NCBI GenBank assembly: GCA_002011495.1
Contig: MTNR01000044.1
Coordinates: 1-47,545, forward strand
Direction of reading: 5' to 3'
Length of the DNA: 47,545 nt
Source: Dehalococcoides sp. JdFR-56
Lineage (GTDB): Bacteria > Chloroflexota > Dehalococcoidia > Dehalococcoidales > RBG-16-60-22
Position 1 is the stretch's first letter. The number at the start of each line of letters is the position of its first letter. The notes below the pieces were generated by a model. The model did no database searches, was not told the origin of the DNA, and was given only the letters and a program-made list of their open reading frames with translations. This document shows positions 21,070 through 43,214 of the stretch, piece after piece. A program made the translations under genes and the position numbers.

Positions 21070-22050
21070 CTACACGATCTCCTCTACCGCCTTGATCAAT
21101 TTCTCCTCATTGGGCATCCAGAAGTCCTCCAGCACCACGCCGTAGGGAACTGGGGTATCCGGAGCATTCACCCTCTTTACCGGGGCATCAAGATAGTCAA
21201 AGGCCTCATCAGCCACGATGGCAGCAACCTGGGCAGCGAAGCTCCCCGTCTGGCATTCCTCAGTGAAGATGACGATTCGGCCCGTCTTCTTCACTGAGTT
21301 AAGCACGGTCTCCTTATCAAAGGGCACGATGGTGCGCGGGTCAATGATCTCTAGGCTGATGCCCTTTTCCTTCTCCAGCTTCTCGGCGGCGTTGAGGGCT
21401 CGGGTGACCATGTAGGCGGTGGCCACCACGGTGACGTCACCACCCTCACGCACAATGTTGGCCTGACCGAAGGGGATAAGATATTCCTCCTCCGGCACCT
21501 GGCTCTTGGGGCCGGCCCACATCAGCATCTTGTGCTCCAGGAAAATCACCGGGTTATCATCCCTGATGGCCGTTTTGAGCAAGCCCTTGGCGTCATAGGC
21601 GTTGGAAGGGAGCACAATCTTCAGCCCGGGGATGCTCATCAGCATCCCCTCTATGCTCTGGGAGTGCTGCGCCGCCTGCCGGCGCCCGGCGCCGGTGAGG
21701 GCATCCATGGTGAGCGGCATCTTGATTTTGCCCCCGAACATGTATTTCATCTTGGTCATCTGGTTCATTATCTCATCCCAGGCCACTCCCAGGAAGTCGG
21801 CAAACCTCATCCGCGCTATCGGCCTCATCCCGGTGATGGCGGCCCCAATGGCTGCCCCCAAGATAGCCGCCTCAGAAAGGGGGGTATCCCTCACTCTATC
21901 CACCCCGTATTTCTCATATAGACCCCCGATCTCCCCCATCAGACCTCCCATCTTGCCCACATCCTCCCCCAGGATGAAGACTGATGGGTCCCGTGCCATC
22001 TCCTCATCCAGAGCTTCACCTATCGCTTGGCGAAAGTTTATCTCTCTCAC
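21070..22050 (-). CDS. 2-Oxoacid/acetoin dehydrogenase E1 beta subunit
   Basis: A 326-aa E1 beta subunit of a thiamin-diphosphate 2-oxoacid dehydrogenase (pyruvate, branched-chain or acetoin type). Landmarks: FILGEDVGKMGG, RVRDTPLSEAAILGAAIGAA, GAGRRQAAQHSQSIEGMLMSIPGLKIVLPSNAYDAKGLL and EIIDPRTIVPFDKETV. The start is GTG 22050 with TAGGAG overlapping the E1 alpha stop, a gap of only nine bases. GRRQAAQHSQS resembles acetoin-dehydrogenase-type E1 (AcoB). No E2 or E3 gene lies nearby. Confidence 0.88.
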   Translation of the reverse strand: MREINFRQAIGEALDEEMARDPSVFILGEDVGKMGGLMGEIGGLYEKYGVDRVRDTPLSEAAILGAAIGAAITGMRPIARMRFADFLGVAWDEIMNQMTKMKYMFGGKIKMPLTMDALTGAGRRQAAQHSQSIEGMLMSIPGLKIVLPSNAYDAKGLLKTAIRDDNPVIFLEHKMLMWAGPKSQVPEEEYLIPFGQANIVREGGDVTVVATAYMVTRALNAAEKLEKEKGISLEIIDPRTIVPFDKETVLNSVKKTGRIVIFTEECQTGSFAAQVAAIVADEAFDYLDAPVKRVNAPDTPVPYGVVLEDFWMPNEEKLIKAVEEIV

Positions 22051-22059
22051 TTTTATCTC

Positions 22060-23019
22060 CTAAGAATAGACGTTTTTCAAGGCTTCCTCAGGCTCGGGGA
22101 AGGGACTCTCCAGGGCAAACTTCACCGCCTCATCCATCTCCTCTCGCGCCGCCTGGTCAATCTCCTCCGCCTCCTTTTCGGTGAGCACCTTCATCTTGAT
22201 GAGCTTTTCCTTAAAATTATTGACGGGGTCTCGTTTGAGCCACTCCTCAACCTCCTCCTTGGGCCGGTAGGTGCCGGCGTCCCCCTCAAAGTGCCCGCGG
22301 AAACGGTAGGTCTTGGCCTCAATGAGCGTCGGGCCCTCACCCCGCCTTGCCCTGGCCACCGCTTCCCCGGCCGCTTCATACACCGCCATGACATCCATGC
22401 CATCCACCACCACGCCGGGAATGCCGTAGCCGGCAGCCCTATCGGCCACGTTGGGGACGGATAGAGAGCAGCTTGTGGGCACAGAAACCGCCCAGAGGTT
22501 ATTCTCACAGACGAAGACCACCGGCAGGCACCACACCGAGGCTAAGTTTATCCCCTCATGGAACCTGCCGATGTTGGCGGCGCCATCGCCGAAGAAGCAG
22601 ATGGTGACCTGGTCAGTGCCCCTCAATTTGGCGGAAAGACCGGCCCCGGTGGCGATGGGGATGCCTGAGCCCACGATGCCGGCAGCCCCCAGCATACCGA
22701 TGTCCAGGCTAGCGATATGCATCGAGCCCCCTTTGCCCAGGCAGTAGCCGGTCTTCTTGGCAAAGAGCTCGGCCATCATTAGCCTAGGGTCCCCACCCTT
22801 GGCAATGAGGTGCCCGTGCCCGCGGTGGGTGCTCATGATGTAGTCGTCCTTCCTTAAATGCGCTATCGCCCCGGTGGCCACCGCCTCCTCCCCGATATAC
22901 AGGTGCACGCTGCCGGGGATGTTCCCCTCAGCAAACTCCCGGGCCACCCTCTCCTCAAAGCGCCGGATGCGCACCATGGTGCGGTAAAGCTCCTTCAATT
23001 TTTCCTTTTCAATGGCCAT
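22060..23019 (-). CDS. 2-Oxoacid/acetoin dehydrogenase E1 alpha subunit
   Basis: A 319-aa E1 alpha subunit. The ThDP motif is complete: GDGAANIGRFHEGINLASVWCLPVVFVCENN; other blocks are HLYIGEEAVATGAI, STHRGHGHLIAKGGD and GKGGSMHIAS. I start it at ATG 23019 with GGAAAGG upstream; the track start is a GTG three codons earlier. The protein is nearer to AcoA (acetoin) than to classical PdhA by the KGGSMHIA and RGHFEGD blocks. It makes a heterotetramer with the beta subunit encoded next. A -10 element at 23094 suggests its own transcription start. Confidence 0.88.
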   Translation of the reverse strand: MAIEKEKLKELYRTMVRIRRFEERVAREFAEGNIPGSVHLYIGEEAVATGAIAHLRKDDYIMSTHRGHGHLIAKGGDPRLMMAELFAKKTGYCLGKGGSMHIASLDIGMLGAAGIVGSGIPIATGAGLSAKLRGTDQVTICFFGDGAANIGRFHEGINLASVWCLPVVFVCENNLWAVSVPTSCSLSVPNVADRAAGYGIPGVVVDGMDVMAVYEAAGEAVARARRGEGPTLIEAKTYRFRGHFEGDAGTYRPKEEVEEWLKRDPVNNFKEKLIKMKVLTEKEAEEIDQAAREEMDEAVKFALESPFPEPEEALKNVYS

Positions 23020-23053
23020 ATTATTCACCTTTCCGTTTTGATAAGGCTTCCTC

Positions 23054-23149: not shown

Positions 23150-23959
23150 CTATTTCTGCCACCCCCTGATGGTTCCAGTTAGACCACCGTCCACCAGCAG
23201 GGTGGTCCCGTTGACGTATTTCGCCTCGTCAGAGGCCAGGAACAGGGCGGCATGGGCGGTATCCCAAGCATCACCTTGCTTGCCGGTGGGGGACATGGCA
23301 TCCCGCCGCCGCCACATCTCCTCAATATCTCCTCCGGCCCAGGCATCCTTATTGTAAAATTCAGCCTGAGGGGTGCGCATCAGCCCGGGGAGGATGGCGT
23401 TGCAGCGTATTCCCTTGGCAGCATACTGCAGGGCGACATCCCGGGTGAGGGCAAGCACCGCCGCCTTTGAGGCCGCATAGGCACAGTTGGGCAGGGGGGT
23501 TCTGATGGCGGCGATGGAGGCGATATTGATGATGACCCCGCCTCCCTGCTTTAACATATGGGGAATGACGTACTTGCAGGTCAAAAACATGCTCTTCACG
23601 TTGACCGCCATCACCCTGTCCCAGGTCTCCTCATCGGTTTCCACCACACCACCCCACTGCCCGATGCCGACGTTATTGTGCAGGATGTCAATCCGGCCAA
23701 ACTTCTCTAAGCAAGCCGCAACCATCCGCTCACAGTCGCTCGCCTTGGATACATCCGCCTTGAAGGTGATACACTCCCCGCCTTCCTCCTCAATCAGCCG
23801 CCGGGTCTCTTCAGCCGCCTCAAGATTTAAGTCAACCGCCATCACTTTAGCCCCCTCCCGAGCAAAGACGATGGCGGTAGCTTTGCCATTGCCGATGCCG
23901 GCCAGAATTGAGCCAGCGCCGGTAACAATGGCTACTTTACCTTTAAGTCTCTCTCCCAT
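23150..23959 (-). CDS. SDR-family oxidoreductase (paralog 1)
   Basis: A 269-aa short-chain dehydrogenase. The cofactor loop is the expanded form TGAGSILAGIGNGKA (three residues longer than the usual TGxxxGIG), followed by Asp in AVDLN, suggesting NAD. NNVGIG, Ser in NIASIAAI and the YAASK dyad complete the active site. The C-terminal block VNGTTLLVDGG is typical. It is one of three paralogs in the window (also 23987 and 40596) that share MWRRRDAMSPTGKQGDAWD. It lies 27 bases after paralog 2 in one minus-strand operon with the zinc dehydrogenase. The substrate is probably a sugar, polyol or hydroxyacid. Confidence 0.9.
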   Translation of the reverse strand: MGERLKGKVAIVTGAGSILAGIGNGKATAIVFAREGAKVMAVDLNLEAAEETRRLIEEEGGECITFKADVSKASDCERMVAACLEKFGRIDILHNNVGIGQWGGVVETDEETWDRVMAVNVKSMFLTCKYVIPHMLKQGGGVIINIASIAAIRTPLPNCAYAASKAAVLALTRDVALQYAAKGIRCNAILPGLMRTPQAEFYNKDAWAGGDIEEMWRRRDAMSPTGKQGDAWDTAHAALFLASDEAKYVNGTTLLVDGGLTGTIRGWQK

Positions 23960-23986: not shown

Positions 23987-24793
23987 TTACCATCCTCTTA
24001 TCGTTCCCGCGATGCCGCCGTCCACCAGCAGCGTGGTTCCGGTGATGTATTTGGCCTCATCAGAGGCTAAAAACAGGGCAGCGTAGGCAACATCCCACGG
24101 CTCCCCCTGCTTGCCGGTGGGAGACATGGCGTCCCGCCGCCGCCACATCAGCTCAACATCACCATCACCATAGGCATCCGGGTTGTAGAATTCAACCATC
24201 GGGGTCTTCATCAGCCCAGGGAGGATGGCATTACAGCGTATCCCCTTGGCGGCATACTGCAGGGCCACCTCCCGGGTGAGGGCGACCACCCCAGCCTTGG
24301 AACAAGCGTAGGCGACGGCTGGCGACGGCTGCGCCCTGATGGCATTGAGCGAGGAGATATTGATGATGACACCGCTTCCTTGCCTCTCCATATGGGGCAG
24401 CACATACTTGCAGGTCAAAAACATGCTCTTCAGGTTGATGGTCAGCATCTTATCCCAGATTTCCTCGCTGGTTTCCACCGGCCCACCATATCCCCCCATG
24501 CCGACGTTATTGTGCAGAATATCAATCCGGCCAAACTTCTCAAGGCAAGCCTGCACCATTTTCTCACAGTCACTCGCCTTGGAGACATCAACCTTGAAGG
24601 TGACGCACTCCCCGCCTTCCTCCTCAATCAGCCGCCGGGTCTCCTCGGCCGCCTCAAGATTATAATCAACCGCCATCACTTTAGCCCCCTCCCGAGCAAA
24701 GACGATGGCGGTAGCCTTGCCATTGCCGATGCCAGCCAGAATTGAGCCAGCGCCGGTAACAATGGCCACTTTGTCTTTTAGACGCTCTCCCAT
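23987..24793 (-). CDS. SDR-family oxidoreductase (paralog 2)
   Basis: A 268-aa short-chain dehydrogenase, tandem paralog of the preceding entry. The first 60 codons are nearly the same at DNA level in the two genes (TGAGSILAGIGNGKATAIVFAREG). Active-site landmarks are NNVGMGGYGG, Ser in NISSLNAI and YACSK. It is closer to paralog 3 (40596) in the middle (NNVGMGGYGGPVETSEEIWD) than to its neighbour, so the order of duplications is not simple. It lies 33 bases after the zinc dehydrogenase gene and shares its direction. Confidence 0.9.
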   Translation of the reverse strand: MGERLKDKVAIVTGAGSILAGIGNGKATAIVFAREGAKVMAVDYNLEAAEETRRLIEEEGGECVTFKVDVSKASDCEKMVQACLEKFGRIDILHNNVGMGGYGGPVETSEEIWDKMLTINLKSMFLTCKYVLPHMERQGSGVIINISSLNAIRAQPSPAVAYACSKAGVVALTREVALQYAAKGIRCNAILPGLMKTPMVEFYNPDAYGDGDVELMWRRRDAMSPTGKQGEPWDVAYAALFLASDEAKYITGTTLLVDGGIAGTIRGW

Positions 24794-24826: not shown

Positions 24827-25861
24827 TTACTCTGGGTAGAGTAATATCTTGCCCGCCTGGCCGCTGGTGGCCAGCTCAAAGGCTTCCTTAAATTCCGAGA
24901 GCGGGAAACGATGGGTGATTACCGGCAGGGGGTCAAACTTCCCGGTATCCAGCATCGCCCGCACCTGCCACCAGGTCTGCCAGACCGCCCGACCAAAGAC
25001 GCCAAATACCCGGGCTTCCTTCAGGATAATGTCTTTATGAACCTCCAGCTCCACCGGCCCCGGGGGCACGCCAACCAGGCTCACCCTGCCCTCGCGCCTG
25101 AGCACCTTAAAGGTCTGCTTCATCGCCTCAGGGCTGCCACTGAGCTCGATGGATACGTCCACCCCCAGTCCATCGGTGGCTTCCATGATAACTTGCACCG
25201 GGTCCTGTTCCTTGGGGTTGATCAGTATGACATCCGGGAATAACTTCCGGGCCATCTCCAGCCGCTTGGGGGCTACCTCCAGCCCAAATACCTTGGTGGC
25301 GCCGAAGACCTTCGCCTCGCCGATGGCAAATAGCCCGATGGGGCCGCAACCAAAAACGGCCACGCTTTTTCCGTTTACCTCCCCGGCCATGACGCCGTGC
25401 ATGGCCACCCCTAAAGGCTCGTGAATGGCGCCGAGCTCATACGGTGTGCCTTCAGGATGTTTCCAGCAGACAATCTCGGGGACCCGGGCATACTCGGCAA
25501 AGGCGCCATCGGCGCTGAGACCAAAGAGCCCCAGGTTCTGACAGTTGAGCGCCGCCCCGGTCTGGCAATAATAACAGTTCCCGCAGAAAATATGCGGCTC
25601 CGGGGAAACAAGGTCACCTTTCTTCAGCCTGGTGACGCACTCCCCAACCTCCACCACCTCACCACAGGTCTCATGCCCCAGGATTACCGGGAGCTTCATC
25701 ATGTGCATTATGCCCGGAGACGAGTGGTAGGCATGGATATCGCTGCCGCAGATGGTCGTTCCCTTCACCTTGATCAGGACGTCTCTGGGCCCGATTTTGG
25801 GAACATCGGTATCAATATATTCAAATCCCGGGGCCTCGTTTGCTTTGACTAGTGCTTTCAC
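24827..25861 (-). CDS. Zinc-dependent dehydrogenase (threonine/polyol dehydrogenase-like)
   Basis: A 344-aa medium-chain dehydrogenase starting at GTG 25861 with GGAAGGGGGA upstream. Catalytic zinc: Cys38 (TICGSDIH) and His-Glu in GHETCGE; structural zinc: FCGNCYYC..ALNC with four cysteines. The nucleotide fold is VAVFGCGPIG, with Glu in LEVAPKR favouring NAD. It resembles L-threonine 3-dehydrogenase and sorbitol/galactitol dehydrogenases. It heads the minus-strand run with two SDRs, so a two-step oxidation of a polyol or hydroxyacid is plausible. Confidence 0.9.
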   Translation of the reverse strand: MKALVKANEAPGFEYIDTDVPKIGPRDVLIKVKGTTICGSDIHAYHSSPGIMHMMKLPVILGHETCGEVVEVGECVTRLKKGDLVSPEPHIFCGNCYYCQTGAALNCQNLGLFGLSADGAFAEYARVPEIVCWKHPEGTPYELGAIHEPLGVAMHGVMAGEVNGKSVAVFGCGPIGLFAIGEAKVFGATKVFGLEVAPKRLEMARKLFPDVILINPKEQDPVQVIMEATDGLGVDVSIELSGSPEAMKQTFKVLRREGRVSLVGVPPGPVELEVHKDIILKEARVFGVFGRAVWQTWWQVRAMLDTGKFDPLPVITHRFPLSEFKEAFELATSGQAGKILLYPE

Positions 25862-26011: not shown

Positions 26012-26434
26012 CTATTTTGTCCTCGGGAGCAAGCTTTCCAGCATTTTATCGGCGGCTTCCTTGGCCGACATGCCCGCGCTCACGCCGAGCTTCCTCGCCA
26101 CCTCATTGGCCACGGAGATTCTGCCTTGCTCATAGGTGCTCATCCCGAAGCCAATCTTCGCCGACATGCAGGCTACCGCAGCCGCCGGAATGCCGTGCTT
26201 CTCTAAGAGTTTCAGGCCGGCGATGCCAGCCTCATTCTTGCCCAAGCCAGCATCGTTGCCAATGAGACCCCGAATTCCATTGTGGAGCGCCAACTCACCC
26301 ACATTTATCCCGCAGTGGGAGCCAACCACCAGGATGTCATTGCAGTTGCTCTCATCCATGGCCGCGGCAGAATCGGCAACGATGATCCGGCTTTCTCCAA
26401 GCTGTCTTACTATTTTCTGCTCTTCCTTAGCCAA
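26012..26434 (-). CDS. Conserved small protein of unknown function (copy 2)
   Basis: A 140-aa soluble protein starting at TTG 26434 with a strong GGAGGAG site. I do not recognise a characterised family. The most striking parts are VVGSHCGINVG, LIGNDAGLGKNEAGIAGLKLLEKHGIPAAAV and the motif SAKIGFGMSTYEQGRIS, all shared with the adjacent copy. The GSHCG and NDAG motifs look like active-site or ligand loops of a small alpha/beta fold. It closes the TRAP transporter operon, so a role in processing or sensing the imported substrate is likely but unproven. Confidence 0.75.
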   Translation of the reverse strand: MAKEEQKIVRQLGESRIIVADSAAAMDESNCNDILVVGSHCGINVGELALHNGIRGLIGNDAGLGKNEAGIAGLKLLEKHGIPAAAVACMSAKIGFGMSTYEQGRISVANEVARKLGVSAGMSAKEAADKMLESLLPRTK

Positions 26435-26465
26435 TCTCCACTCCTCCTACCACGCCTCGGGGCGC

Positions 26466-26873
26466 CTACATGCTCTCAAACATCCTATCGGCAGCCTCCT
26501 TGGCCGACATGCCCACGCTCACGCCGAGCTTCTCAGCCACCTTATTGACAGCCGAGATAACACCCTCCTCGTAAGTAGACTGGCCAACGCCAATTTCGGC
26601 AGACATGGCCGCCACCGCGGCGGCAGGGATGCCATGTTCCTCAAGGACTTTCAAACCGGCAATCCCAGCCCCCTCTAGGCCAATCCCGGCATCATTGCCG
26701 ATCATGCCCCGGGCTCCGGCTTTCAGCACGTAACCGGCGACATTCTCGCCGCAGTGAGAGCCAAAGACGGCAATGTCATTTCGATTGCCCTCGTCGAGAG
26801 ATGTCGCCGAGTTGGCAATGATGATCCGGCGCTCGCCAGACTGTCTGGCTACTTTGTGAACCTCCTTGACCAA
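26466..26873 (-). CDS. Conserved small protein of unknown function (copy 1)
   Basis: A 135-aa paralog of the next gene, also starting at TTG (26873). Shared landmarks: VFGSHCGENVAG, MIGNDAGIGLEGAGIAGLKVLEEHGIPAAAV, SAEIGVGQSTYEEGVIS and the ending GVSVGMSAKEAADRM. The two copies differ mostly in the N-terminal third, and the GSHCG cysteine and histidine are kept in both. It lies 42 bases after dctM. The tandem pair could form a heterodimer or a two-lobed active site. Function not known to me. Confidence 0.75.
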   Translation of the reverse strand: MVKEVHKVARQSGERRIIIANSATSLDEGNRNDIAVFGSHCGENVAGYVLKAGARGMIGNDAGIGLEGAGIAGLKVLEEHGIPAAAVAAMSAEIGVGQSTYEEGVISAVNKVAEKLGVSVGMSAKEAADRMFESM

Positions 26874-26915: not shown

Positions 26916-28250
26916 CTATCTTATCATCTGGCCTGGTAGCCAGGTGATTATCTCAGGGAAAATGGTGAAGATGGCAAGCCCCACCATGATGAGGCCAACA
27001 TGTGGCAGCACCCCCCGGACGATGTCACCCATGGTCACCCCCAACTTCGGGTCACAGGCGCCACGGCAGATGAATATTCCGGAGGCGAAGGGCGGCGTCA
27101 TGAAGGCCATCTGCAGGTTAACGCAGACCATGATGGAGAACCAGAGGACGTTAAACCCGGCAGCCTCGGCGATGGGGGTGATAATGGGCACCATGATGTA
27201 AACGATGCCGATCCACTCAATAAACATGCCCATGATGAAGATGATGAACATGATGACGGCAAAGACACCCCACTTGCCACCGGGAGCACTCATGATGATT
27301 TCCTGCATGACCTCTCTGCCCCCGCCACCAAGAAAGACGGCGGTAAACGCCACCGCCATGGAGACGATGACAAAGATGAAGCCACAGGCCCTCATGGTGA
27401 GGAGGGCAACTTCCTTGAGTACGCTCCAGCTGAACCGGCGGTAGGCAATGGTGAGCAGGGTGGCGGTAAAGGCGCCAACGCCGGCTGCCTCGGTGGGAGG
27501 CGCTATCCCCAGGAAGATGACACCCAGCACCGCCATGATGAGGATGGCCACCGGCCCCAGGGCTATGGTCAGCATCCACGTTTTCTTGAGGAAGGGAACC
27601 TTCCTCTCCTCAGGGGGCACGGCGGGTGCGATGTTTGGCTGCAGGAAACTGCGCACCGCGATGTAAATGATGTATAAGGCGGAGAGGGTAAACCCGGGGA
27701 AGAAGGCGCCAAAAAAGAGCTTGCCCACGGAAACCCCAGCCATCGGCCCGTAAAGGACCAGCATAATGCTGGGGGGAATGAGAATGCCCAGACATCCCCC
27801 GGCGGTGATCGAGCCCGTGGCCAGGCTCTTGCTATAACCCCGCTTCATCATGGAGGGGAGAGCAACCATGGTCAGCATGGTGATTGAGGCGGCGATGATA
27901 CCGACCGTGGCCGCGATGATGGTGCCCATGAGCACGGTGATGATGGCCAGGCCACCCCTTAACCCGCCGAGCCAGACATACAGGGCATCGTACAGCTTCT
28001 CCGATATCCCGGAACGCTCCAGCATCACCCCCATGAAGACAAACAGGGGCACCGCCAGGATAACATACTCGGTGATTATCCCGTAAATGCGGCTGTAGAT
28101 GACGTCAACTACCTGACCTCCGAAGACGAAGTAGCCAACGCCCAGGGCCAGAGCGCCAACAATGAAGCCTAACGGGTAACCGGTGAGAACCCCTATAAAG
28201 ACCCCGCCCATCATGATGGCGGTCAAAAGCTCTGGACTCATATTAGTCAT
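26916..28250 (-). CDS. dctM: TRAP transporter large permease (DctM)
   Basis: A 444-aa membrane protein with about twelve hydrophobic segments and DctM landmarks: VPLFVFMGVMLERSGI, GGCLGILIPPSIMLVLYG, the C-terminal LQMAFMTPPFASGIF and an Asn/Gly-rich family pattern. It moves the substrate, driven by a sodium or proton gradient, with DctQ and the DctP binding protein. ATG 28250 overlaps the dctQ stop by ATGA. Family members carry dicarboxylates, sugar acids, keto acids and similar organic anions; the substrate here is open. Confidence 0.93.
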   Translation of the reverse strand: MTNMSPELLTAIMMGGVFIGVLTGYPLGFIVGALALGVGYFVFGGQVVDVIYSRIYGIITEYVILAVPLFVFMGVMLERSGISEKLYDALYVWLGGLRGGLAIITVLMGTIIAATVGIIAASITMLTMVALPSMMKRGYSKSLATGSITAGGCLGILIPPSIMLVLYGPMAGVSVGKLFFGAFFPGFTLSALYIIYIAVRSFLQPNIAPAVPPEERKVPFLKKTWMLTIALGPVAILIMAVLGVIFLGIAPPTEAAGVGAFTATLLTIAYRRFSWSVLKEVALLTMRACGFIFVIVSMAVAFTAVFLGGGGREVMQEIIMSAPGGKWGVFAVIMFIIFIMGMFIEWIGIVYIMVPIITPIAEAAGFNVLWFSIMVCVNLQMAFMTPPFASGIFICRGACDPKLGVTMGDIVRGVLPHVGLIMVGLAIFTIFPEIITWLPGQMIR

Positions 28251-28753
28251 AGGGCTTTATTCCTTATCAAGAGATAAAAGTCACGGACCAGCTGCGCCAT
28301 GCCTTGCAGGGCAAACAGAGCTAGCCCCAGCATCACGATCGTTCTCAATGGCCCAGCTGGCGGGTACCAGCCAGTAATCGGCATACGCTCACCGGTTTCC
28401 CAGGCGTACCACATCCAGTCCCAGGCATTGAGAACCAGCAGAATGATAAAGGGGGAAAAGAGGAATATGTCACCAAGAACGTCAATGATTGCTTTGCCCC
28501 GAGGGGGAAGATGCGCGTAAATCATGTCAACCCTGACGTGGGCCTGATGCAGGTGGGTATAGGCAAAGGCAAGGATATAGAGGCTTGCCCCCAGCATCAC
28601 GCTGACCTCATAGGCCCAGAGCGATGGGGCATTGAAGAGATAGCGCATCATCACTTCATAAGTGACCACCCCCACTAGAGCTACACCAAACCAACTTCCT
28701 ATCCTTCCCGTCCACTCACTGATGGCATCAATTATCCCAATAATAGTTCTCAT
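28247..28753 (-). CDS. dctQ: TRAP transporter small permease (DctQ)
   Basis: A 168-aa four-helix membrane protein: helices at about 15-40, 45-65, 88-110 and 130-150, with the family pattern YEVMMRYLFNAPSLWAYEVSVML and HQAHVRVDMIYAHLPPRGKA. It pairs with DctM. The start ATG 28753 has only a weak ribosome site. A 15-bp hairpin lies between dctP and this gene and could lower its expression compared with dctP. Confidence 0.92.
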   Translation of the reverse strand: MRTIIGIIDAISEWTGRIGSWFGVALVGVVTYEVMMRYLFNAPSLWAYEVSVMLGASLYILAFAYTHLHQAHVRVDMIYAHLPPRGKAIIDVLGDIFLFSPFIILLVLNAWDWMWYAWETGERMPITGWYPPAGPLRTIVMLGLALFALQGMAQLVRDFYLLIRNKAL

Positions 28754-28830: not shown

Positions 28831-30003
28831 TTAGAGGCGCGGATAGGTGGCATCGTAGCGGTCGCGCCACGAGAAGAGGGAATCCATGAGCTTGGCATAG
28901 AACGGGTCTTCCGCGGCCCTCTTCTGGTAGAACTCCGTGGCCAGCTTGATCAGCTCGTCTTCCAGCGACTTGGGCGCAGGCAGAACGTTCACGCCAGCCT
29001 GGATCCAGTCCTGAGCGGCAGTGGTGTTCTTGTAGGTCCACTCGGCATAGTGCCGAATGCCCTCAGCCCACCACAGCTCCTGGACGATGACCTTCAGGTC
29101 GTCAGGCAGTGCTGCCCAGGATTCCTTGTTGACGATGTAGATGTACATATCGGTGGGCTGGCGGACTGGGGAGACGTAGGCGTAGTCAACCACTTCCTGG
29201 AAGCCCATGTTCCAGTCAACCGCCAGGCTGCTGTGCTGGAAGCCGTCGATCACGCCACGCTGTATGGCCTCGTAGAGCTCTGGGCTGGGGGTGGCCACAG
29301 CGGCGACCTTCAGCTTGCCGAAGATCTCTGCCTCGTCACCGAGCAGACGCATCTTCTTCCCAGCTAGGTCCTCAGGCCCCTCCACTGGGAAGGTGGTGTA
29401 GAGGAAGGTCTCCGGCTCACGGCAGACAGCCGCTATCGGCATCACCTTGTCATAGCCGCCGTTGTCAAACATCTCCTGCATCAGGTCAAAGCCCTCGCCC
29501 CACATGTACCACATGTAGTACTCAAGGGCCGTCGGGCCGCCAACGGTGGTGGAGAACGGCGGTGCCGCGGGGAGATTGGAGACCCAGAGTATGGGGCCGT
29601 TATGGGCTACATCCAGAACGCCCCTCTGCACCCCGTCAATCTCGGTGTCAGCAGGGACGATGGCGCCACCCTCATTGGACTGAATGACCAGACGCCCGCC
29701 AGTAGCCTCCTCAATCAGCTTGTTCACCCTCTCGAAAGACTGGTAGGTTGAAGTGGTGGTGGGGTTGTCATCCTGGCCAATCCACTTGATCACTTCAGCT
29801 GGCTGTGCCGGTGCTGGCGCAGGAGCCGGGGCGGGTGCTGGTGATGGCGCCGGTGACGGTGCTGGTGCTGGAGCCGGTGCCGGGGCCGGCGCGGGTGCTG
29901 GTGCTGGTGCCGGTGCCGGGGCAGGTGCCGCGCAGGCGCTGAACAGACCGCCCAGCAGGACAACTACCATCGCCAAGGCAAATACTACTTTTCTTCTACT
30001 CAA
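28831..30003 (-). CDS. dctP: TRAP transporter substrate-binding lipoprotein (DctP)
   Basis: A 390-aa lipoprotein: signal peptide with lipobox LFSAC (lipidated Cys24), then about 40 residues of Ala-Pro repeats as a spacer, then the DctP fold (ATGGRLVIQSNEGGAIVPADTEIDGVQRGVLDV, LAGKKMRLLGDEAEIFGKLKVAAVATPSPELYEAIQRGVIDGFQHS). The Arg in KMRLLG is where the family clamps the substrate carboxylate. Start TTG 30003 follows GGAGGAGGT; no better start keeps the signal peptide. The length without the spacer is normal for the family. It leads the operon dctP-dctQ-dctM plus two small genes. Confidence 0.92.
   Translation of the reverse strand: MSRRKVVFALAMVVVLLGGLFSACAAPAPAPAPAPAPAPAPAPAPAPAPSPAPSPAPAPAPAPAPAQPAEVIKWIGQDDNPTTTSTYQSFERVNKLIEEATGGRLVIQSNEGGAIVPADTEIDGVQRGVLDVAHNGPILWVSNLPAAPPFSTTVGGPTALEYYMWYMWGEGFDLMQEMFDNGGYDKVMPIAAVCREPETFLYTTFPVEGPEDLAGKKMRLLGDEAEIFGKLKVAAVATPSPELYEAIQRGVIDGFQHSSLAVDWNMGFQEVVDYAYVSPVRQPTDMYIYIVNKESWAALPDDLKVIVQELWWAEGIRHYAEWTYKNTTAAQDWIQAGVNVLPAPKSLEDELIKLATEFYQKRAAEDPFYAKLMDSLFSWRDRYDATYPRL
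29806..29927 (-). repeat. Ala-Pro coding microsatellite in dctP
   Basis: About twenty repeats of a six-base unit coding Ala-Pro (a few Ser-Pro) follow the lipidation site. The codons vary (GCACCG, GCACCA, GCGCCC), so the tract is not a pure microsatellite but is still prone to unequal crossover. It produces a rigid extended stalk, which would hold the binding domain away from the membrane. Confidence 0.8.
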
Positions 30004-30433: not shown

Positions 30434-31279
30434 ATGGCTTATGATGAAAAGCTAATCAAGAAGCTGGAGGAGAAGGCAAAGATTCTGCGCCGGGACGCCA
30501 TCGAGATGATCCGGGCCGGCGAGTCCGGCTGGGTCGGCGGCTCATTCTCCCAGGCGGATATCATCGCCGCGCTCGTGTTCCACCACATGAGACATGACCC
30601 CAAGAATCCCCACTGGGAAGAGCGGGACCGGCTGGTTGTCTCCAAAGCCCACTGCTGTGAAACCGTTTACGCGGCACTGGCTGAGGCGGGCTATTTCTCC
30701 AAGAAGGAATATCAGCTTTATGGCAAGCTGGGCGCTCTCCTGCAAGCTCACACCGAGCGCAAGGTGCCCGGGGTTGAGTATTCCGGCGGCTCCCTGGGAC
30801 AGGGGCTATCTTTCGCCCTAGGGGAGGCGCTGGCCGCCCGCATCGGTGCCCCCAGAGACAGTTCCGGCAGACCAGTCCCGCGCTACCGCGCCTTCTGCAT
30901 CGTTGGGGATGGGGAGAGCGACGAGGGGCAAGTCTGGGAGGCGGTCATGGCGGCAGCCCATTACCAGGTTGACAACCTCATCGCCATTGTTGACCACAAC
31001 AAATTCCAGTCCAGCGGCACCGTGGAGGAGAGGATAAACATCATGCCCCTGGCGGAGAAGTGGCGCGCCTTCGGCTGGGATACCACCGAGATCAATGGGC
31101 ATGATTTCAATGAAATCTTGAGCGCTCTGGAGAGGGCAGACCAGGTTAAGGGCAAACCCCACGCCATCATCGCCCACACCACCAAGTGCAAGGGCGTACC
31201 CTCTTTCGAGCATAAGAACCTGCACTTCTGCAAGCTCTCCGACGAAATGTATGCCCAGGCAATTGAGGCGCTTAAATAG
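30434..31279 (+). CDS. Transketolase, N-terminal subunit
   Basis: A 281-aa protein equal to the ThDP pyrophosphate-binding half of transketolase. The cofactor motif is GDGESDEGQVWEAVMAAAHYQVDNLIAIVDHNKFQSSG; other blocks are VVSKAHCCETVYAALAEAG and VEYSGGSLGQGLSFALG. It moves two-carbon units between sugar phosphates together with the C-terminal subunit encoded next. Split transketolases occur in many anaerobes and also serve in special sugar pathways. GAAGGAGGT precedes ATG 30434. The substrate may be a non-standard ketose, given the neighbours. Confidence 0.92.
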   Translation: MAYDEKLIKKLEEKAKILRRDAIEMIRAGESGWVGGSFSQADIIAALVFHHMRHDPKNPHWEERDRLVVSKAHCCETVYAALAEAGYFSKKEYQLYGKLGALLQAHTERKVPGVEYSGGSLGQGLSFALGEALAARIGAPRDSSGRPVPRYRAFCIVGDGESDEGQVWEAVMAAAHYQVDNLIAIVDHNKFQSSGTVEERINIMPLAEKWRAFGWDTTEINGHDFNEILSALERADQVKGKPHAIIAHTTKCKGVPSFEHKNLHFCKLSDEMYAQAIEALK

Positions 31280-31333
31280 AGGAAGCCTTCAAAGAGCCAA
31301 TAATAGCCACATAAAAGGGAGTTAAATAAAAAG

Positions 31334-32299
31334 ATGAAGCGTAGCTATGTAATGGAATCACCGGGCGAAGCCAAAGCCATGTATCAGGCCTACCATGAGG
31401 CCATGCTGGAGCTGGTGAAAAAAGACGGCAACATCGTTCTTCTCTACGGGGACTTCCCCCGGGGTGCCGCCGGCGAATTCATGGAAAAGGAATGTCCAGA
31501 CCGGATTTACGATGTCGGCATCGCTGAAGCCAACCTGATCACCACCGCCGCCGGTCTAGCCGCGGGGGGCAAGCTCCCCTTCACCCACTGCCATAGCATC
31601 TTTGCTGTGGGGAGAGCCTATAACCAGATAAGGCAGAACGTGGCCTTTGACAAGCTCAACGTGAAAATAGTCCTCTGCAACTCGGGGATGCTCTGGCCCT
31701 TCATGGGCGGCTCCCATCAGATTATTGAGGAGATCGCTGCCCTGCGCGTCATCCCTAACTTGGTCCTCATCTCCCCGGCCGACCAGGTGGAGACGCGGAA
31801 GGCGACCAGGGCAGCGGCAGAATTTCCCGGGCCGGTTGCCCTGAGACTGGCCAATCCCCCCGTGCCCACCATATACACCGAGCAGTTACCTTATGAGCTG
31901 GGGAAAGCGGTGACGGTGGTAGACGGGGAAGACGCCACCATCATCGCCACTGGCATCATGCTTGCTGACTCGCTTACCGCCACCGAGCTATTGGCCAAAG
32001 AGGGCATCAAAGCCCGGCTCCTTGATATGCACACCCTTAAGCCGCTGGATGAGGCGGCGGTGCTGAAAGCGGCCAAAGAAACCGGCGCCCTGGTCACCGT
32101 GGAGGACAGCAGCATCATCGGCGGGCTGGGAGGCGCGGTGGCCGAGGTTATCGCCGAGAATAGCCCGGTGCCGCTGCGGAGAGTCGGCATCAGGGACCGC
32201 TTTGGCCAGTCAGGAACCGTAGACGACCTGAAAAAGGAATACGGCCTCACCGCTCAGGACATCGCCCAAGCGGTGAAAGAAGCGCTCAAGAAGAAATAA
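31334..32299 (+). CDS. Transketolase, C-terminal subunit
   Basis: A 321-aa protein equal to the pyrimidine-binding and C-terminal domains of transketolase. Landmarks: RIYDVGIAEANLITTAAGLAAGGKLPFTH with the catalytic Glu that activates ThDP, FAVGRAYNQIRQNVAFDKLNVKIV and RLLDMHTLKPLDEAAV. It lies 54 bases after its partner, with AAGGGAG before the ATG. Its stop converges with the dehydrogenase gene that follows, only nine bases apart, with no terminator in between. Confidence 0.92.
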   Translation: MKRSYVMESPGEAKAMYQAYHEAMLELVKKDGNIVLLYGDFPRGAAGEFMEKECPDRIYDVGIAEANLITTAAGLAAGGKLPFTHCHSIFAVGRAYNQIRQNVAFDKLNVKIVLCNSGMLWPFMGGSHQIIEEIAALRVIPNLVLISPADQVETRKATRAAAEFPGPVALRLANPPVPTIYTEQLPYELGKAVTVVDGEDATIIATGIMLADSLTATELLAKEGIKARLLDMHTLKPLDEAAVLKAAKETGALVTVEDSSIIGGLGGAVAEVIAENSPVPLRRVGIRDRFGQSGTVDDLKKEYGLTAQDIAQAVKEALKKK

Positions 32300-35219: not shown

Positions 35220-36062
35220 TCAGCCGGTGGCGTGGGTGATCTCCCTCACGCTCCTCTGAATATTGCCGATATCAAAGACCTTCTGCTTCCAGTCCAGCTG
35301 GAAAATCTGCTCTCTGGCCTTGCTCGCCGCTAATTTAGCGCCATCGGAGACCGGAGCCCCGGCAAAATCAAAGACGATGGCCGCCGTGGTGCGAAGATGG
35401 CCATAGAGGAAGTCCCGAACCGCCGGCTCCGGGACGCCCATCCGGATGACCTCCTCCATCGCCTCCCGGATGACGATGATGCAGGTCAGGGCCAGCGTCT
35501 CCACCAGCGCCGGCTCCAGAATCGCCATCTGCTCGGTGGTGAGGCGGTGTGCCCTGGTCACCGGGGCAAAGATAGCTCGGGCGAGCGCCTCCCCCTTGGC
35601 GTAATCCTCCTCAGGGCCCTGATGTAGGGAACAGACGATGTTCTGCTTGGCCTTGACGCCACCAAACCAGTCACGCTGGGCCTCAAGGTCAGTCTCCTCA
35701 CCAAAGAGAGGCGGGTGGCAGGGATGGGAGATGAAGTAAGAGATATCATCACGCTTGGGCAATACGCCGGCATACGCCGCTGCCGGGTCAAGGCCCATGA
35801 CCATGGCGCCACTTTTGAGCTTGGGCACAATCTCGCCGCAGATTTTGGCCATGAGGGCATCTGGCACCGCCAGAATGACCACGTCGGCCTCCCTGATGGC
35901 TTCTTCCTGGGGGGTTACCGAGAGCCCAAGCTCGGCGAGAGCGGCTCTACCCGCCTCGCTGATCTCAACGTAATGGGTGGTATAGTCAGGGTTGTCCTTC
36001 AGATTGCGGGCGATGCGCAGCCCCATCTTGCCGCCAGCACCCATCAAGGCTACTGTGCTCAT
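35220..36062 (-). CDS. ApnO-like NAD-dependent oxidoreductase with PGDH-type C-terminal domain
   Basis: A 280-aa protein with the nucleotide fold VALMGAGGKMGLRIARNLK, the block SGAMVMGLDPAAAYAGVLPKR and the motif SHPCHPPLFGEET, followed by a helical C-terminal domain (HRLTTEQMAILEPALVETLALTCIIVIREAMEE..). This pattern recalls D-apionate oxidoisomerase (ApnO) and relatives whose C-terminus is like 6-phosphogluconate dehydrogenase, from memory. Such enzymes oxidise and rearrange branched sugar acids. AAAGGAG precedes ATG 36062. It runs opposite to the flanking SDRs, which otherwise form the plus-strand run. Confidence 0.72.
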   Translation of the reverse strand: MSTVALMGAGGKMGLRIARNLKDNPDYTTHYVEISEAGRAALAELGLSVTPQEEAIREADVVILAVPDALMAKICGEIVPKLKSGAMVMGLDPAAAYAGVLPKRDDISYFISHPCHPPLFGEETDLEAQRDWFGGVKAKQNIVCSLHQGPEEDYAKGEALARAIFAPVTRAHRLTTEQMAILEPALVETLALTCIIVIREAMEEVIRMGVPEPAVRDFLYGHLRTTAAIVFDFAGAPVSDGAKLAASKAREQIFQLDWKQKVFDIGNIQRSVREITHATG

Positions 36063-37010: not shown

Positions 37011-38453
37011 ATGAAGAACAGAACACCAAGCACCAACTTGAGTGCCGAAGACCTCTGTTTTACTCCAGCGGTTGAGCTGAGAGAGATGCTGCGCGGCAAG
37101 CTCATCTCCCCGGTGGAGCTGGTGCAGATATTTCTTGAGCGCATTGAGCGCGTCAACCCCAAGATTAACGCCTACTGTACCCTGGTTCCGGAGATGGCGC
37201 TGGAGCTAGCTAGGAAGGCGCAGTCAGCCATTATGAGGGGAGAGGCCGGGATGCTCTGCGGCCTGCCGGTATCAATCAAGGATGTTACCCTGACCGCCGG
37301 CATCCGCACCACCTTTGGCTCCAAGCTGTATGAACACTTTGTTCCTGATACTGATGAGCTCATCGTGGAGCGGCTGAAGGAGGCGGGGGCAGTCGTTCTG
37401 GGCAAGACCAATACCCCCGAATTTGCCGCCGGGGGTTCCACCTTCAATAAGGTGTTTGGCATAACCCGCAATCCCTGGAACACTGATTTCACCGTTGGGG
37501 GCTCAAGTGGCGGGGCCGCTGCGGCCGTGGCCGCCGGGCTGGGCCCGCTGGCTACCGGAAGTGACCTGGGGGGCTCGCTCCGGCTCCCGGCTAGCTTCTG
37601 CGGCGTGGTTGGCCTGCGGCCCTCGCCAGGAAGGGTGCCCCGGCATCCCTATAAGCTTAACTGGGATGATTTATCCGTGCAGGGGCCGATCGCCCGCACC
37701 GTGGCTGACACCGCTCTCATGCTGGAGGCGATCTCCGGCCCTGACAGCCGAAGCCCGGTGTCTTGGCCCGAGAAGACGAGTTTCCTTGAGGCGGTGCAGA
37801 ACCCTGAGGTCAAGAACCTCCGCATCGCCTGGAGCGATAATCTGAACTTAATGCCGGTGGAACAAGAAGTCCTGGAGATAACGAGGTCAGCGATTGAGGT
37901 GTTCCGCAACTTGGGTACTGAGGTCAGCGAAGACACCCCTGACTTCAGCGGCGCCAAGGAGGTGGCGCTCACCCTGCGCGGGCTGCGCTTTGTTGCCTTA
38001 TATCAGGACCAGATGGCTGACCCGGAATTCAAGCGGTGGGTGAACCCGCTGGTGCAGGGCAACATTGAGCAAGGCCTAAAACTCTCCGTGCGGGATATCG
38101 CCCGGGCCCAGCGGCAGAGGTCGGAAATATGGGACCGGGTGAGGACGTTCTTTGATAAGTATGACCTATTGCTCACCCCTACCACCCCCATTCCGCCCTT
38201 CCCCGCAGAAACGCAGTACCCCACCGAGATCGCCGGCCAGCCCATGGCAAGCTATATTGACTGGGCCATGCTGACCTACGCCATCACCGTAGTTGGCCTG
38301 CCAGCGATATCGGTCCCCTGTGGCTGGACAAAGCAAGGACTGCCGGTGGGGCTTCAGATAGTGGCACGCCGCCATGATGAGGCGGCTCTGCTCCGGGCAG
38401 CGGCGGCTTATGAGTCGGCCGCCCCTTGGGCAGGGAGAAGACCGCCGCTCTAG
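37011..38453 (+). CDS. Amidase-signature family amidohydrolase
   Basis: A 480-aa amidase of the Ser-cisSer-Lys class. The lysine is in PVSIKDV, the cis-serine in GGSSGGAAAAVAAGLGPLATGSDLGGSLRLPA, where the final Ser is the nucleophile. AAGGAG supports ATG 37011 rather than the TTG at 37005. Members hydrolyse amide bonds in many small molecules; GatA is excluded by context, since gatB/gatC are absent. It might release an acid from an amide substrate for the neighbouring dehydrogenases. Its last four bases overlap the convergent RraA-like gene. Confidence 0.9.
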   Translation: MKNRTPSTNLSAEDLCFTPAVELREMLRGKLISPVELVQIFLERIERVNPKINAYCTLVPEMALELARKAQSAIMRGEAGMLCGLPVSIKDVTLTAGIRTTFGSKLYEHFVPDTDELIVERLKEAGAVVLGKTNTPEFAAGGSTFNKVFGITRNPWNTDFTVGGSSGGAAAAVAAGLGPLATGSDLGGSLRLPASFCGVVGLRPSPGRVPRHPYKLNWDDLSVQGPIARTVADTALMLEAISGPDSRSPVSWPEKTSFLEAVQNPEVKNLRIAWSDNLNLMPVEQEVLEITRSAIEVFRNLGTEVSEDTPDFSGAKEVALTLRGLRFVALYQDQMADPEFKRWVNPLVQGNIEQGLKLSVRDIARAQRQRSEIWDRVRTFFDKYDLLLTPTTPIPPFPAETQYPTEIAGQPMASYIDWAMLTYAITVVGLPAISVPCGWTKQGLPVGLQIVARRHDEAALLRAAAAYESAAPWAGRRPPL

Positions 38454-39160
38454 CTCTGCTCCTCATAGGTGCGAGTATGGTCAATGGCAACCGTCCCTAA
38501 CCTATCCAGGCCGAGAATCTGGCCCAGGCTTTCCCCTGCCTTGACCCGTTTGATTACCTTTTCCTCGTCTTTCAGGAATTTTCTCGTCCTCTCCAGCACC
38601 TCTTCAGCCTCATCCCGGGGCACGACGACCACGCCATTATCGTCAACGATGACGATGTCTCCTGGGTTGACCACCGCCCCTCCGCACTGTATCGGCACGT
38701 TGATATAGCCAGCGCCAACCAGCCCAGCGGCGTTGGGGGCGATGCCCTGACACAGCACCGGGAACCCCATCTCCTTTAGCTCCACGACGTCCCTCACCCC
38801 GGAGTCCAGAATCACGCCCACGGCTCCCTTCCGCTGCGCCTCCATGGTGACGATCTCGCCCCAGAAGGCGGTGTCCTTGGAGTTATGGGTATCAACCACG
38901 ATGACGTCTCCGCTTTGGACCAGCTCCAGGGATTTGATCACCGGGGCCAGGTCAGAAGCGCTGGTCTTCACGGTAAGGGCAACCCCGACCAGACGAACCC
39001 CGGGAAAGAGAGGTTTGATATCTGAGCTCATGGTGTTGAGCCGGTTCATCACGTCGGAGACGCCGGGGACAATGGAATAATACTCTTCTAGCAGACTGCG
39101 GAAACCTTCAACCACCTCCTGTGCGGGGCGCTTGACCTCAGTATTGACCTCAATCGGCAT
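38450..39160 (-). CDS. RraA-like / 4-hydroxy-4-methyl-2-oxoglutarate aldolase-family protein
   Basis: A 236-aa protein of the RraA/HMG-aldolase fold. It shows DVMNRLNTMSS, GVALTVKTSASD, VVDTHNSKDTAFWGEI, the metal/substrate site GVILDSGVRDVVEL (Arg-Asp) and the characteristic VDDNGVVVVPRDEAEEVLER. Catalytic members cleave 4-carboxy-4-hydroxy-2-oxoadipate or HMG to pyruvate; others are RNase E regulators, unlikely here. AAGGAGGTC precedes ATG 39160. The catabolic neighbours favour an aldolase or decarboxylase role. Confidence 0.85.
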   Translation of the reverse strand: MPIEVNTEVKRPAQEVVEGFRSLLEEYYSIVPGVSDVMNRLNTMSSDIKPLFPGVRLVGVALTVKTSASDLAPVIKSLELVQSGDVIVVDTHNSKDTAFWGEIVTMEAQRKGAVGVILDSGVRDVVELKEMGFPVLCQGIAPNAAGLVGAGYINVPIQCGGAVVNPGDIVIVDDNGVVVVPRDEAEEVLERTRKFLKDEEKVIKRVKAGESLGQILGLDRLGTVAIDHTRTYEEQS

Positions 39161-41557: not shown

Positions 41558-42082
41558 ATGGATCTCAAGGCGCTGCATAAGCTGGGCTATGGTCTCTACG
41601 TGGTAACCTCGAGGAAAGGAGACCGCCTCAACGGACAAATCGCCAACACCGTATTTCAGGTAACCTCCGAGCCACCAACCGTTGCCGTGAGCATCAACAA
41701 GAACAACCTCACCTGGGAATTCGTCCGGGAAAGCCGGGTCTTTGCCGTCTCCGTCCTCTGCCAGGACACGCCTCTCCCCTTCATCGGCCGCTTTGGCTTT
41801 AAGTCAGGCCGGGACATAGATAAACTGGAGGGGATAAACTACCAGATAGGCCAGACCAAGGCCCCCGTGGTTATCGACCACGCCGTCTCCTACCTGGAAG
41901 CCAGGGTAGTCAAGGAGATGGACGTGGGCACGCACACCATCTTCGTTGGCGAAGTCGTGGGCGCAGAGGTGCTCAATGAAATGCCGTGCATGACCTATGA
42001 CTATTACCATAAGGTCAAGCGGGGCACCGTACCCAAAGCCGCCCCGAGCTACATCGGAAAAGAAGAAAGGAATAAAACATGA
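41558..42082 (+). CDS. Flavin reductase-family FMN-binding protein
   Basis: A 174-aa split-barrel flavoprotein: LHKLGYGLYVVTSRKGDRLNGQIANTVFQVTSEPPTVAVSINKNNLTWE, RVFAVSVLCQD, and a C-terminal VGEVVGAEVLNEMPCMTYDYYHKVKRG. It binds FMN and in relatives reduces flavin for a partner oxygenase or passes electrons from NAD(P)H or rubredoxin; here no rubredoxin domain is fused. GAGAGGTG precedes the ATG. It overlaps the D-2-hydroxyacid dehydrogenase by ATGA, so the two are made together. Confidence 0.88.
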   Translation: MDLKALHKLGYGLYVVTSRKGDRLNGQIANTVFQVTSEPPTVAVSINKNNLTWEFVRESRVFAVSVLCQDTPLPFIGRFGFKSGRDIDKLEGINYQIGQTKAPVVIDHAVSYLEARVVKEMDVGTHTIFVGEVVGAEVLNEMPCMTYDYYHKVKRGTVPKAAPSYIGKEERNKT

Positions 42083-43125
42083 GCCGGAAAGCGAGGATTG
42101 GCTTCACCCGCGATTTTCTGGATAAGGACGGGAATTTCATTCTGCCCGGCCCCGGGCTGAAGCTGCTGGACGAGATGCCCAATATAGAGCACCAGGTATT
42201 CGCCGAGGCCCTGCCCGAGGTAACCCCGCAGCAGATAGAGGGCTTTGACATCGTCATCTCCCGGGGGCTGCCCAGGTGGACGGAGCACAGCTTTATCGGC
42301 AACGAGCAACTTCTCTCCATCCATCGCAATGGCGTGGGCTATGACCGCATCGATGTCCCGGCACTTACCGAGGCTGGCGTCATGCTCTGCATCACCCCGG
42401 CGGCGGTGCGCCGCCCGGTGGCCGTCGCCATCCTCACCTTTATCCTCGCCTTAAGCACCCGGCTCATCACCAAACACTTGCTCACCAGAGAAGGGCGGTG
42501 GCATGAGGTGGCCAAACTGCACGGCTACGGGCTGGTGGGCAAGACGCTGGGGTCGCTAGGGGTGGGCAACATCGGCCATGAGATGTTCAAGCTGGCCAAA
42601 CCCCTGGGCATGAGGCACATCGCCCATGACCCCTATATCACCGAAGAGGTGGTGGCCGATGTTGGGGTCAAGCTCGTCGACCTGGACACCCTGCTAGCGG
42701 AGTCAGACTTCCTGAGCATCAGCTGCCCCTTAAACGAGCGCACCCACCATCTCATTGGCGAAAAAGAACTCCGCCGGATGAAGCCCACCGCCTTCCTCAT
42801 CAACACCGCCCGCGGGGCCATCGTGGATGAGGCGGCGCTGATAAAGGCCCTGCGGGAGGGCTGGATACGAGGGGCGGCCATAGACGTCTTTGAGCAGGAG
42901 CCAACCCCGCCGGATAACCCCCTGCTTCGACTAGATAACGTCATCACCACCGCCCACGCCATGGTCTTCACCGATGAGTTCCTGAGTAGCGTGTGGGAGA
43001 TAGTCTTCAGGCAGATATCGCAGATCATGCGCGGGGAGGTCCCCGAGGGTCTGGTCAACCGGGAGGTCTGGGATAAGCCCAAGTTTCAGGCCAAGCTGAA
43101 GCGATTCCTAGAGTCCATTAAATAA
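42079..43125 (+). CDS. D-isomer-specific 2-hydroxyacid dehydrogenase
   Basis: A 348-aa NAD-dependent dehydrogenase: nucleotide fold GKTLGSLGVGNIGHEMFKLAKPLGM, catalytic Arg in INTARGAIVDEAAL, Glu in DVFEQEPTPPDN and His in TTAHAM. It interconverts a 2-oxoacid and the D-2-hydroxyacid (glyoxylate/hydroxypyruvate or phosphoglycerate type). The N-terminal 90 residues diverge from SerA. Overlap with the flavin reductase gene is unusual for this family. It could reduce a 2-oxoacid made by the downstream HpaI-type aldolase; that link is inferred. Confidence 0.9.
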   Translation: MSRKARIGFTRDFLDKDGNFILPGPGLKLLDEMPNIEHQVFAEALPEVTPQQIEGFDIVISRGLPRWTEHSFIGNEQLLSIHRNGVGYDRIDVPALTEAGVMLCITPAAVRRPVAVAILTFILALSTRLITKHLLTREGRWHEVAKLHGYGLVGKTLGSLGVGNIGHEMFKLAKPLGMRHIAHDPYITEEVVADVGVKLVDLDTLLAESDFLSISCPLNERTHHLIGEKELRRMKPTAFLINTARGAIVDEAALIKALREGWIRGAAIDVFEQEPTPPDNPLLRLDNVITTAHAMVFTDEFLSSVWEIVFRQISQIMRGEVPEGLVNREVWDKPKFQAKLKRFLESIK

Positions 43126-43214
43126 AAGGCCAGGCTAACAAAATATTTAGGGTGTATGCTTGAGGCCTCCTGGTTTAAGGCAACGTAGATTTATATTTAG
43201 GAAAGGAGACCAAG

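Follow-up and report, generated by a model that had tools for sequence, protein, structure and literature searches.

A pair of small proteins of an undescribed family in a TRAP transporter and dehydrogenase operon of Dehalococcoides sp. JdFR-56

The window analyzed here is a stretch of 47,545 nucleotides (contig MTNR01000044.1) from Dehalococcoides sp. JdFR-56. On its minus strand, genes follow one another in the order DctP, DctQ, DctM, X1, X2, zinc alcohol dehydrogenase (ADH), two SDR dehydrogenases and, after a 121-nt gap, E1 alpha and E1 beta. DctP (28831..30003) is a TRAP solute-binding protein and probable lipoprotein with a Pro-Ala repeat linker, which matched TRAP_S1 at 64.7 bits (cut-off 50). 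The small permease DctQ (28247..28753) was named from its position between DctP and DctM, and the gene for the large permease DctM (26916..28250), one of 11 DctM genes in the genome, overlaps dctQ by 4 nt. The zinc ADH (24827..25861) resembles L-threonine 3-dehydrogenase and scored 345.7 bits, under the equivalog cut-off of 380. It is followed by the paralogous SDR dehydrogenases 1 (23987..24793) and 2 (23150..23959) and by the two E1 chains of a ThDP dehydrogenase, E1 alpha (22060..23028), at 385 bits below the PDH equivalog cut-off of 393.85, and E1 beta (21070..22050). In a simple scan, which is weak evidence, dctP was preceded by two promoter-like sites, and neither X1 nor X2 ended at a terminator-like site on the minus strand.

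X1 (26466..26873, minus strand) and X2 (26012..26434, minus strand) had been noted in a preliminary description as tandem paralogs of 135–140 residues that start at TTG with good ribosome sites and follow dctM closely, and all of this was confirmed. The two open reading frames encode 135 and 140 residues, respectively, with 67% identity across 135 residues (E = 4e-56), and contain the motifs GSHCG (38–42), GNDAG (59–63) and SA[KE]IG.G.STYE (91–102). Both start at TTG behind purine-rich ribosome sites (GAGGTG and GGAGGAG). X1 lies 42 nt behind dctM and X2 31 nt behind X1, while 150 nt separate X2 from the ADH gene. The start positions are supported by the orthologs, whose ATG, GTG or TTG start codons fall at nearly the same position. 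We take X1 and X2 to be real genes, since orthologs with 54–75% identity retain the reading frame and the motifs, and since every complete match within the same taxonomic family of genomes again belongs to a tandem pair. By column counts, X1 is an altered protomer, with Leu66 in place of Lys, and X2 a canonical one that retains H40, N60, D61 and K66. We refer to the protein family of X1 and X2 as the X family and to its single-domain members as solos.

Several other features of the window recur near X-family genes elsewhere. In DctP, the long Pro-Ala repeat lies between the probable lipobox and the binding domain (29753-29960, minus strand); it is also present, with differing lengths, in the orthologs of L003, L004 and G869. 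Transketolase is encoded as two split genes (30434-32299), divergent from the TRAP operon, and the same two genes sit just past E1 beta in G869. A dense catabolic region (35220-36062, 38450-39160 and 42079-43988) holds genes for a PGDH_C-type dehydrogenase, an RraA-type protein, a 2-hydroxyacid dehydrogenase and an HpcH/HpaI aldolase. Relatives of the latter two adjoin the X operon in G869 and L004, and a PGDH_C-type dehydrogenase gene is also found near a fused X in two haloarchaea.

The X family is undescribed, and neither Pfam nor NCBIfam names it. Searches of both with X1 and X2 gave no family above its curated cut-off, NCBIfam returning polymerase matches at chance level only, and a Pfam search with 35 X-family domains found no strong family. 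PDB sequence searches with one protein, 5 rows or 35 rows gave no acceptable match, and nothing on the family was found in the literature by accession or by its haloarchaeal and aco-type contexts. The earlier view of an unrecognised family thus stood, and the profile search that had been proposed as a check found no known enzyme family above cut-off. Several candidates were rejected. The motifs suggested AcnX-swivel (DUF126) and cyanuric acid hydrolase, and the 35 domains gave no Pfam match to families of this kind. Matches to TetR were short and local, and a RecA match in the PDB profile search (E = 1.5e-5) consisted of repeated weak matches in one multi-copy chain, none of them significant alone. 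Membership in IMS (PF00817) was dismissed as a short local match, with 17.8 bits over 30–37 residues against a threshold of 23.2. The Y-family polymerases (Pfam IMS, DinB) do share a GVIS..N..A...GV...M segment with the X family, and Foldseek returned DinB (4r8u) for the X2 model (prob 0.80–0.85, 30–53 columns); however, only this one short unit is alike, X has no polymerase domain, and the resemblance is local. Residues 106–124 of X2 (window 26012-26434), ISVANEVARKLGVSAGMSA, closely resemble the DinB segment ISTANYPARKFGVRSAMPT, and Foldseek independently returned DinB and Rev1 for X2 over 30–57 columns. The DinB-like segment is probably a recurring beta-alpha unit.

The top Pfam lead was DUF1805 (YunC/TA1206; PF08827, 1QW2), which 20 of the 35 domains matched at E values up to 1 (best 2.6e-5). 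Like X1 and X2, these are small proteins, with the C-terminal pattern A..(L/M)G(V/I)..GM...EA..KM. However, X1 and X2 scored only 21.3 and 19.7 bits against the gathering threshold of 29.5, and the scores in the genome search (22 and 21.5 bits) were also below it. The likeness is limited to 19–26 residues: hhalign covered 19–26 of 99 columns, at the C-terminal helices, with probabilities of 34–62% in local and 0.4–1.1% in global mode. We compared the family with genuine DUF1805 proteins and TA1206, gathered with an approximate YunC-like probe sequence; the aligned DUF1805 sequences lack the GSHGG, NDAG or SARIG motifs of the X family. The stretch in question matches DinB polymerases about equally well, and TA1206 does not appear in the list of the 50 best PDB folds for X2. 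On the Pfam score and hhalign, together with a fold search read to these 50 matches, DUF1805 was rejected as a family assignment. That X1 and X2 are divergent DUF1805 proteins seems to us highly improbable, and we ascribe the likeness to a local motif common to both rather than to family membership.

A search of genome contigs found X in two Dehalococcoidia-type MAGs and one delta-proteobacterial MAG. Whole-genome searches covered 301 genomes of the phylum, 393 of the class and 31 of the taxonomic family, of which 8, 5 and 10, respectively, contain X, as do 10 of 395 genomes from the phylum of the delta-proteobacterial MAG. Plasmid records with X numbered 13 in all (Rhodococcus, haloarchaea, Aminobacter, Rhizobium, Ponticoccus and Methylovirgula), while a scan of viral contigs found no relatives. 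The family is sporadic but wide, extending over Chloroflexota, the delta-proteobacterial phylum, haloarchaea, Rhodococcus and Alphaproteobacteria, which suggests horizontal spread of catabolic clusters.

Within the same taxonomic family, all complete X matches are arranged in tandem pairs (nine pairs in eight genomes, two of them in G869). Fused, two-domain forms occur in haloarchaea, Rhodococcus, Aminobacter, Rhizobium, Ponticoccus, Methylovirgula, G137 and G360, mostly with a length of about 267–317 aa (227 aa in Methylovirgula), and single-domain forms in one Chloroflexota genus (f33 g66), several delta-type genomes and G623. One of the fused genes is RLEG2_RS31475 of Rhizobium leguminosarum WSM2304. 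In a tree whose deeper branches are weak and in which several long branches meet, X1 and X2 formed separate clades (support 95/85 and 81/60), the single X of G623 fell outside both, and the fused N and C domains mostly formed groups of their own. The second pair in G869 (L073, contig 33, 126-982) is a diverged X1-X2 pair beside another DctPQM set, which suggests substrate-specific copies. The fused X on Aminobacter pAA02 (L016, 6419-7372) begins with an apparent twin-arginine signal (MNRRIFLGSSALLVVSLL...ALAQA), so this protein may be periplasmic. In G1059 (L099, 8164-8307), X is reduced to 48 C-terminal residues between PTE and E1 alpha, either by gene loss or by an assembly fault.

Among the solos, each of the 12 rows has S39, H40, N60, D61, S107 and N110; K66 is present in 11 of them and replaced by Arg in the remaining one. 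H40, N60, D61 and K66 were likewise kept in 5/5 X2 rows, and position 66 was Leu in 6/6 X1 rows. In the fusions, the N domains of Rhodococcus, Aminobacter and G137 have Tyr at position 40 (4/4), and the C domains of haloarchaea, Alphaproteobacteria and G360 have Phe or Cys at position 60 (7/9) and Glu or Ala at position 42 (7/9). Three pair lineages thus have one near-canonical partner and one with a lineage-specific change (K66L, H40Y or N60F/C); the retained partners are not all perfect, as exemplified by His at position 60 in the Rhodococcus C domain. Since the change differs in each lineage, the sequences suggest that the canonical/altered asymmetry arose more than once. A heteromer of X1 and X2, raised as a possibility in the preliminary description, is well supported, because many relatives, in several lineages, carry both domains fused in one chain, and one partner bears the lineage-specific changes. 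The suggestion that the motifs are catalytic is plausible as far as it goes. The Cys of GSHCG, however, is found in the Dehalococcoidia and in the delta-proteobacterial MAG and is replaced by Gly in most other sequences (GSHGG), so that there is no general catalytic Cys.

A model of X2 was predicted by AlphaFold from a seven-row alignment with X2 as the first sequence. The five models were uneven (pLDDT 82.8, 79.2, 73.1, 58.7 and 54.0), and the best one was used (pLDDT 82.8, pTM 0.81). With X1 as the first sequence, the pLDDT was only 51.7, a poor model from which a fold search is meaningless. In the X2 model, a hairpin at the N-terminus precedes an alternating series of helices and strands 3 to 6, and the chain closes with two C-terminal helices. 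Strands 3, 4 and 5 lead into GSHCG, NDAG and SAKIG, respectively, while S107 and N110 are located at strand 6 and directly beyond its end. Strand ends are the usual place of the active site in alpha/beta proteins, and this one model indicates such a placement for the motif loops of X2. A fold search with the model against 350,542 PDB chains gave no match with E below 0.001, and among the 50 matches listed the TM-score on the query was at most 0.36; the model thus appears to have no convincing fold match in the PDB.

The Dehalococcoidia pairs occur in three multi-gene arrangements. Type A, DctPQM-X1-X2-ADH-SDR(-SDR)-E1 alpha/beta, comprises the window, L003, L004, G869, G1055, G1057 and a cut-off G888, with several contigs stopping before E1; G1054 and G1056 are apparently the genomes of L004 and L003. 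In two type A genomes, a gene for a PCC-domain (DUF296) protein lies upstream of these genes. Type B (G869 contig 33) has the order DctPQM-SDR-E1 alpha/beta-X1-X2. Type C is PTE-X1-X2-E1 alpha/beta-DUF2148-(2-hydroxyacid dehydrogenase, in G1063)-NAD-kinase-like-E2-E3; in G1060, LipB and LipA (both identified by eye) come after E3, while the G1063 stretch ends at E3. The NAD-kinase-like and DUF2148 ferredoxin-domain genes of G1063 (L098, 2783-3769 and 4805-5371) lie inside this lipoyl-complex operon. Type C resembles the aco (acetoin dehydrogenase) clusters in its E1 alpha, E1 beta, E2, E3, LipB and LipA, with the NAD-kinase-like protein in the place of AcoX; in Pelobacter carbinolicus, acoABCSL, acoX of unknown function and lipB are found in one cluster (PMC3543383). 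Unlike the aco clusters, type C has the additional X1-X2, PTE-family and DUF2148 genes, and its E2 scores best against SucB, so that acetoin need not be the substrate. A further arrangement, type D (G623), consists of a PTE-like reading frame, PfkB and X, with an ADH on the opposite strand.

Outside these arrangements, the haloarchaeal clusters contain DctPQM, HpcH, SDR, VOC, fused X, and OiaX-like and OiaK-like genes. OiaX and OiaK are keto-sugar-acid enzymes. The clusters share relatives of both the RuBisCO-like OiaX and OiaK, plus TRAP and SDR genes, with the 3-oxo-isoapionate pathway, but both proteins score under the equivalog cut-off of 700 (504.5 bits for OiaX-like, 445.5 bits for OiaK-like), and we know of no X-family protein in that pathway as described. 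G360 has a ThDP enzyme, a DRL oxidoreductase, TAXI-TRAP and fused X, and Aminobacter has a TAXI-SBP, CoA transferase, HMG-CoA lyase, RraA, VOC, fused X, hydrolases and DctPQM. The Rhodococcus and Rhizobium contexts resemble acyl-CoA metabolism, and the solos of the f33 Chloroflexota genus and of several delta-type genomes have no recurring catabolic neighbors. In each of the three multi-gene arrangements of Dehalococcoidia, E1 alpha/beta are encoded with the pair on every contig of sufficient length, and a ThDP enzyme also adjoins or is near X in G427 and G360. An SDR gene is beside or near X in Dehalococcoidia, haloarchaea, Rhodococcus, Rhizobium and Methylovirgula. Compared with the TRAP genes, SDR/ADH dehydrogenases and, in Dehalococcoidia, the ThDP E1 chains are steadier partners of X.

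The pair had been described as tied to an uptake system, perhaps acting on the imported compound or serving as a sensor. DctPQM or TAXI-TRAP genes were indeed found near X in about five of nine pair or fusion contexts that, by our judgement, are independent. DctPQM is directly upstream in type A, present in type B and about 3 kb upstream of the fused X in four of five haloarchaea, TAXI-TRAP adjoins X in G360, and Aminobacter has both a TAXI-SBP and DctPQM. The probability of a random site falling within 5 kb of a DctM gene is about 7% at the rate of the window genome, from which other genomes may differ; at least five linked contexts of nine would then be expected with p of about 2e-4, rising to 0.05 at a rate of 25%. 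However, 10 of the 11 DctM genes in the window genome are without X. No TRAP gene was seen in the stretches read of Natronosalvus or of type C (G1063, G1060), which has PTE and a lipoyl complex instead, nor near X in Rhodococcus, Rhizobium, Ponticoccus, Methylovirgula, G137 or G623. None of the solos read is near TRAP genes, though one adjoins a family 5 ABC-type binding protein. TRAP genes thus do not lie next to most members, as they should for a TRAP-linked accessory protein, and the link is a partial one, genuine for many pairs but not defining for the family. The sensor proposal fell away: X has no DNA-binding or signaling domain, and no regulator stays linked across lineages. We consider it improbable that X1 and X2 are transport-linked proteins that process or sense the TRAP ligand itself.

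The reading that we tentatively prefer, as possible rather than probable, is that X1 and X2 are the two subunits of one small alpha/beta enzyme, a cofactor-free isomerase or epimerase acting on an alpha-hydroxy-keto intermediate. The sequences strongly indicate that a single-domain ancestor was duplicated, with the copies staying adjacent or fusing, and that one copy retained the motif residues while the other was altered. Such a pair of copies probably functions as a pseudo-symmetric heterodimer, or as a higher oligomer, of which one side is canonical. In the window, the TRAP system would import a hydroxylated carboxylate or polyol-type compound, which the zinc ADH and SDR enzymes would oxidize to an alpha-hydroxy-ketone or diketone. 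X1-X2 would then shift a proton adjacent to the carbonyl, as a racemase, epimerase or ketol-isomerase without cofactor, with candidate acid-base residues among H40, D61 and K66, and the E1 alpha/beta ThDP enzyme would cleave the right isomer. Our reasons for proposing acid-base chemistry beside a carbonyl, without a cofactor, are that the dehydrogenases encoded nearby produce carbonyls and that the ThDP enzymes depend on a specific alpha-hydroxy-ketone or alpha-keto acid. We also considered acetoin racemase as the activity of X; one paper describes this enzyme only as an old proposal that later work did not confirm (PMC4709696).

In favor of such an isomerase are the fused homologs, the column counts, the tree clades, the X2 model, the E1/SDR context and the haloarchaeal OiaX-like and OiaK-like genes. 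Against it, there is no match to an enzyme family or fold, and the reaction is derived from neighbors that differ between lineages: the acyl-CoA-like contexts in Rhodococcus and Rhizobium are not obviously alpha-hydroxy-ketone chemistry, and the solos of the f33 genus and several delta-type genomes have no recurring catabolic neighbors at all. With only 48 residues of X left in G1059, the pathway there may run without X, unless the assembly is faulty. Two other readings are serious rivals. X1-X2 might be an enzyme of the same operon with a different reaction, a lyase, dehydratase or hydrolase (e.g., for lactone ring-opening or dicarbonyl cleavage), for which the motif evidence is equal. PTE-family genes adjoin X in G1063, G1060 and G1059 and are near it in G623, and fumarylacetoacetate hydrolase, RraA and dienelactone hydrolase genes are near the Aminobacter fusion. 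However, those clusters already hold a separate hydrolase, and X has no known lyase or hydrolase signature and, apart from a single His and a single Asp, no conserved set of metal ligands; we regard this alternative as somewhat unlikely. Less likely still is a non-catalytic small-molecule-binding or carrier/chaperone protein for the dehydrogenases or the E1 complex, in which the motifs would form a ligand site. The small size, the glycine/alanine-rich loops, the one altered protomer, the variable pathways and the retention of X beside a multienzyme complex are consistent with such a role, but the strict conservation of S39, H40, D61, K66, S107 and N110 in the solos and X2 suggests chemistry, and the lineages share no co-transcribed regulator.

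The X family is a real, undescribed family within an otherwise ordinary type of catabolic operon. Its members mostly act in pairs, in operons for degrading organic acids or sugar-like compounds, probably as an enzyme. It is conceivable, if somewhat doubtful, that X1-X2 represents a new enzyme family whose fold arrangement is new to the PDB, that its canonical/altered heterodimer evolved independently at least three times, in different lineages, through duplication in tandem or through fusion, and that it catalyzes a step not yet described in the degradation of keto-sugar-acids or alpha-hydroxy-ketones in bacteria and archaea. X-family genes belong to operons that degrade organic compounds, in uncultured Dehalococcoidia as well as in haloarchaea, Rhodococcus and rhizobia, and the fused forms in cultured bacteria and archaea make its function directly testable. 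If X is an enzyme, it would fill a gap in several pathways simultaneously and would be a clean example of a two-part protein that evolved repeatedly, canonical in one partner and altered in the other.
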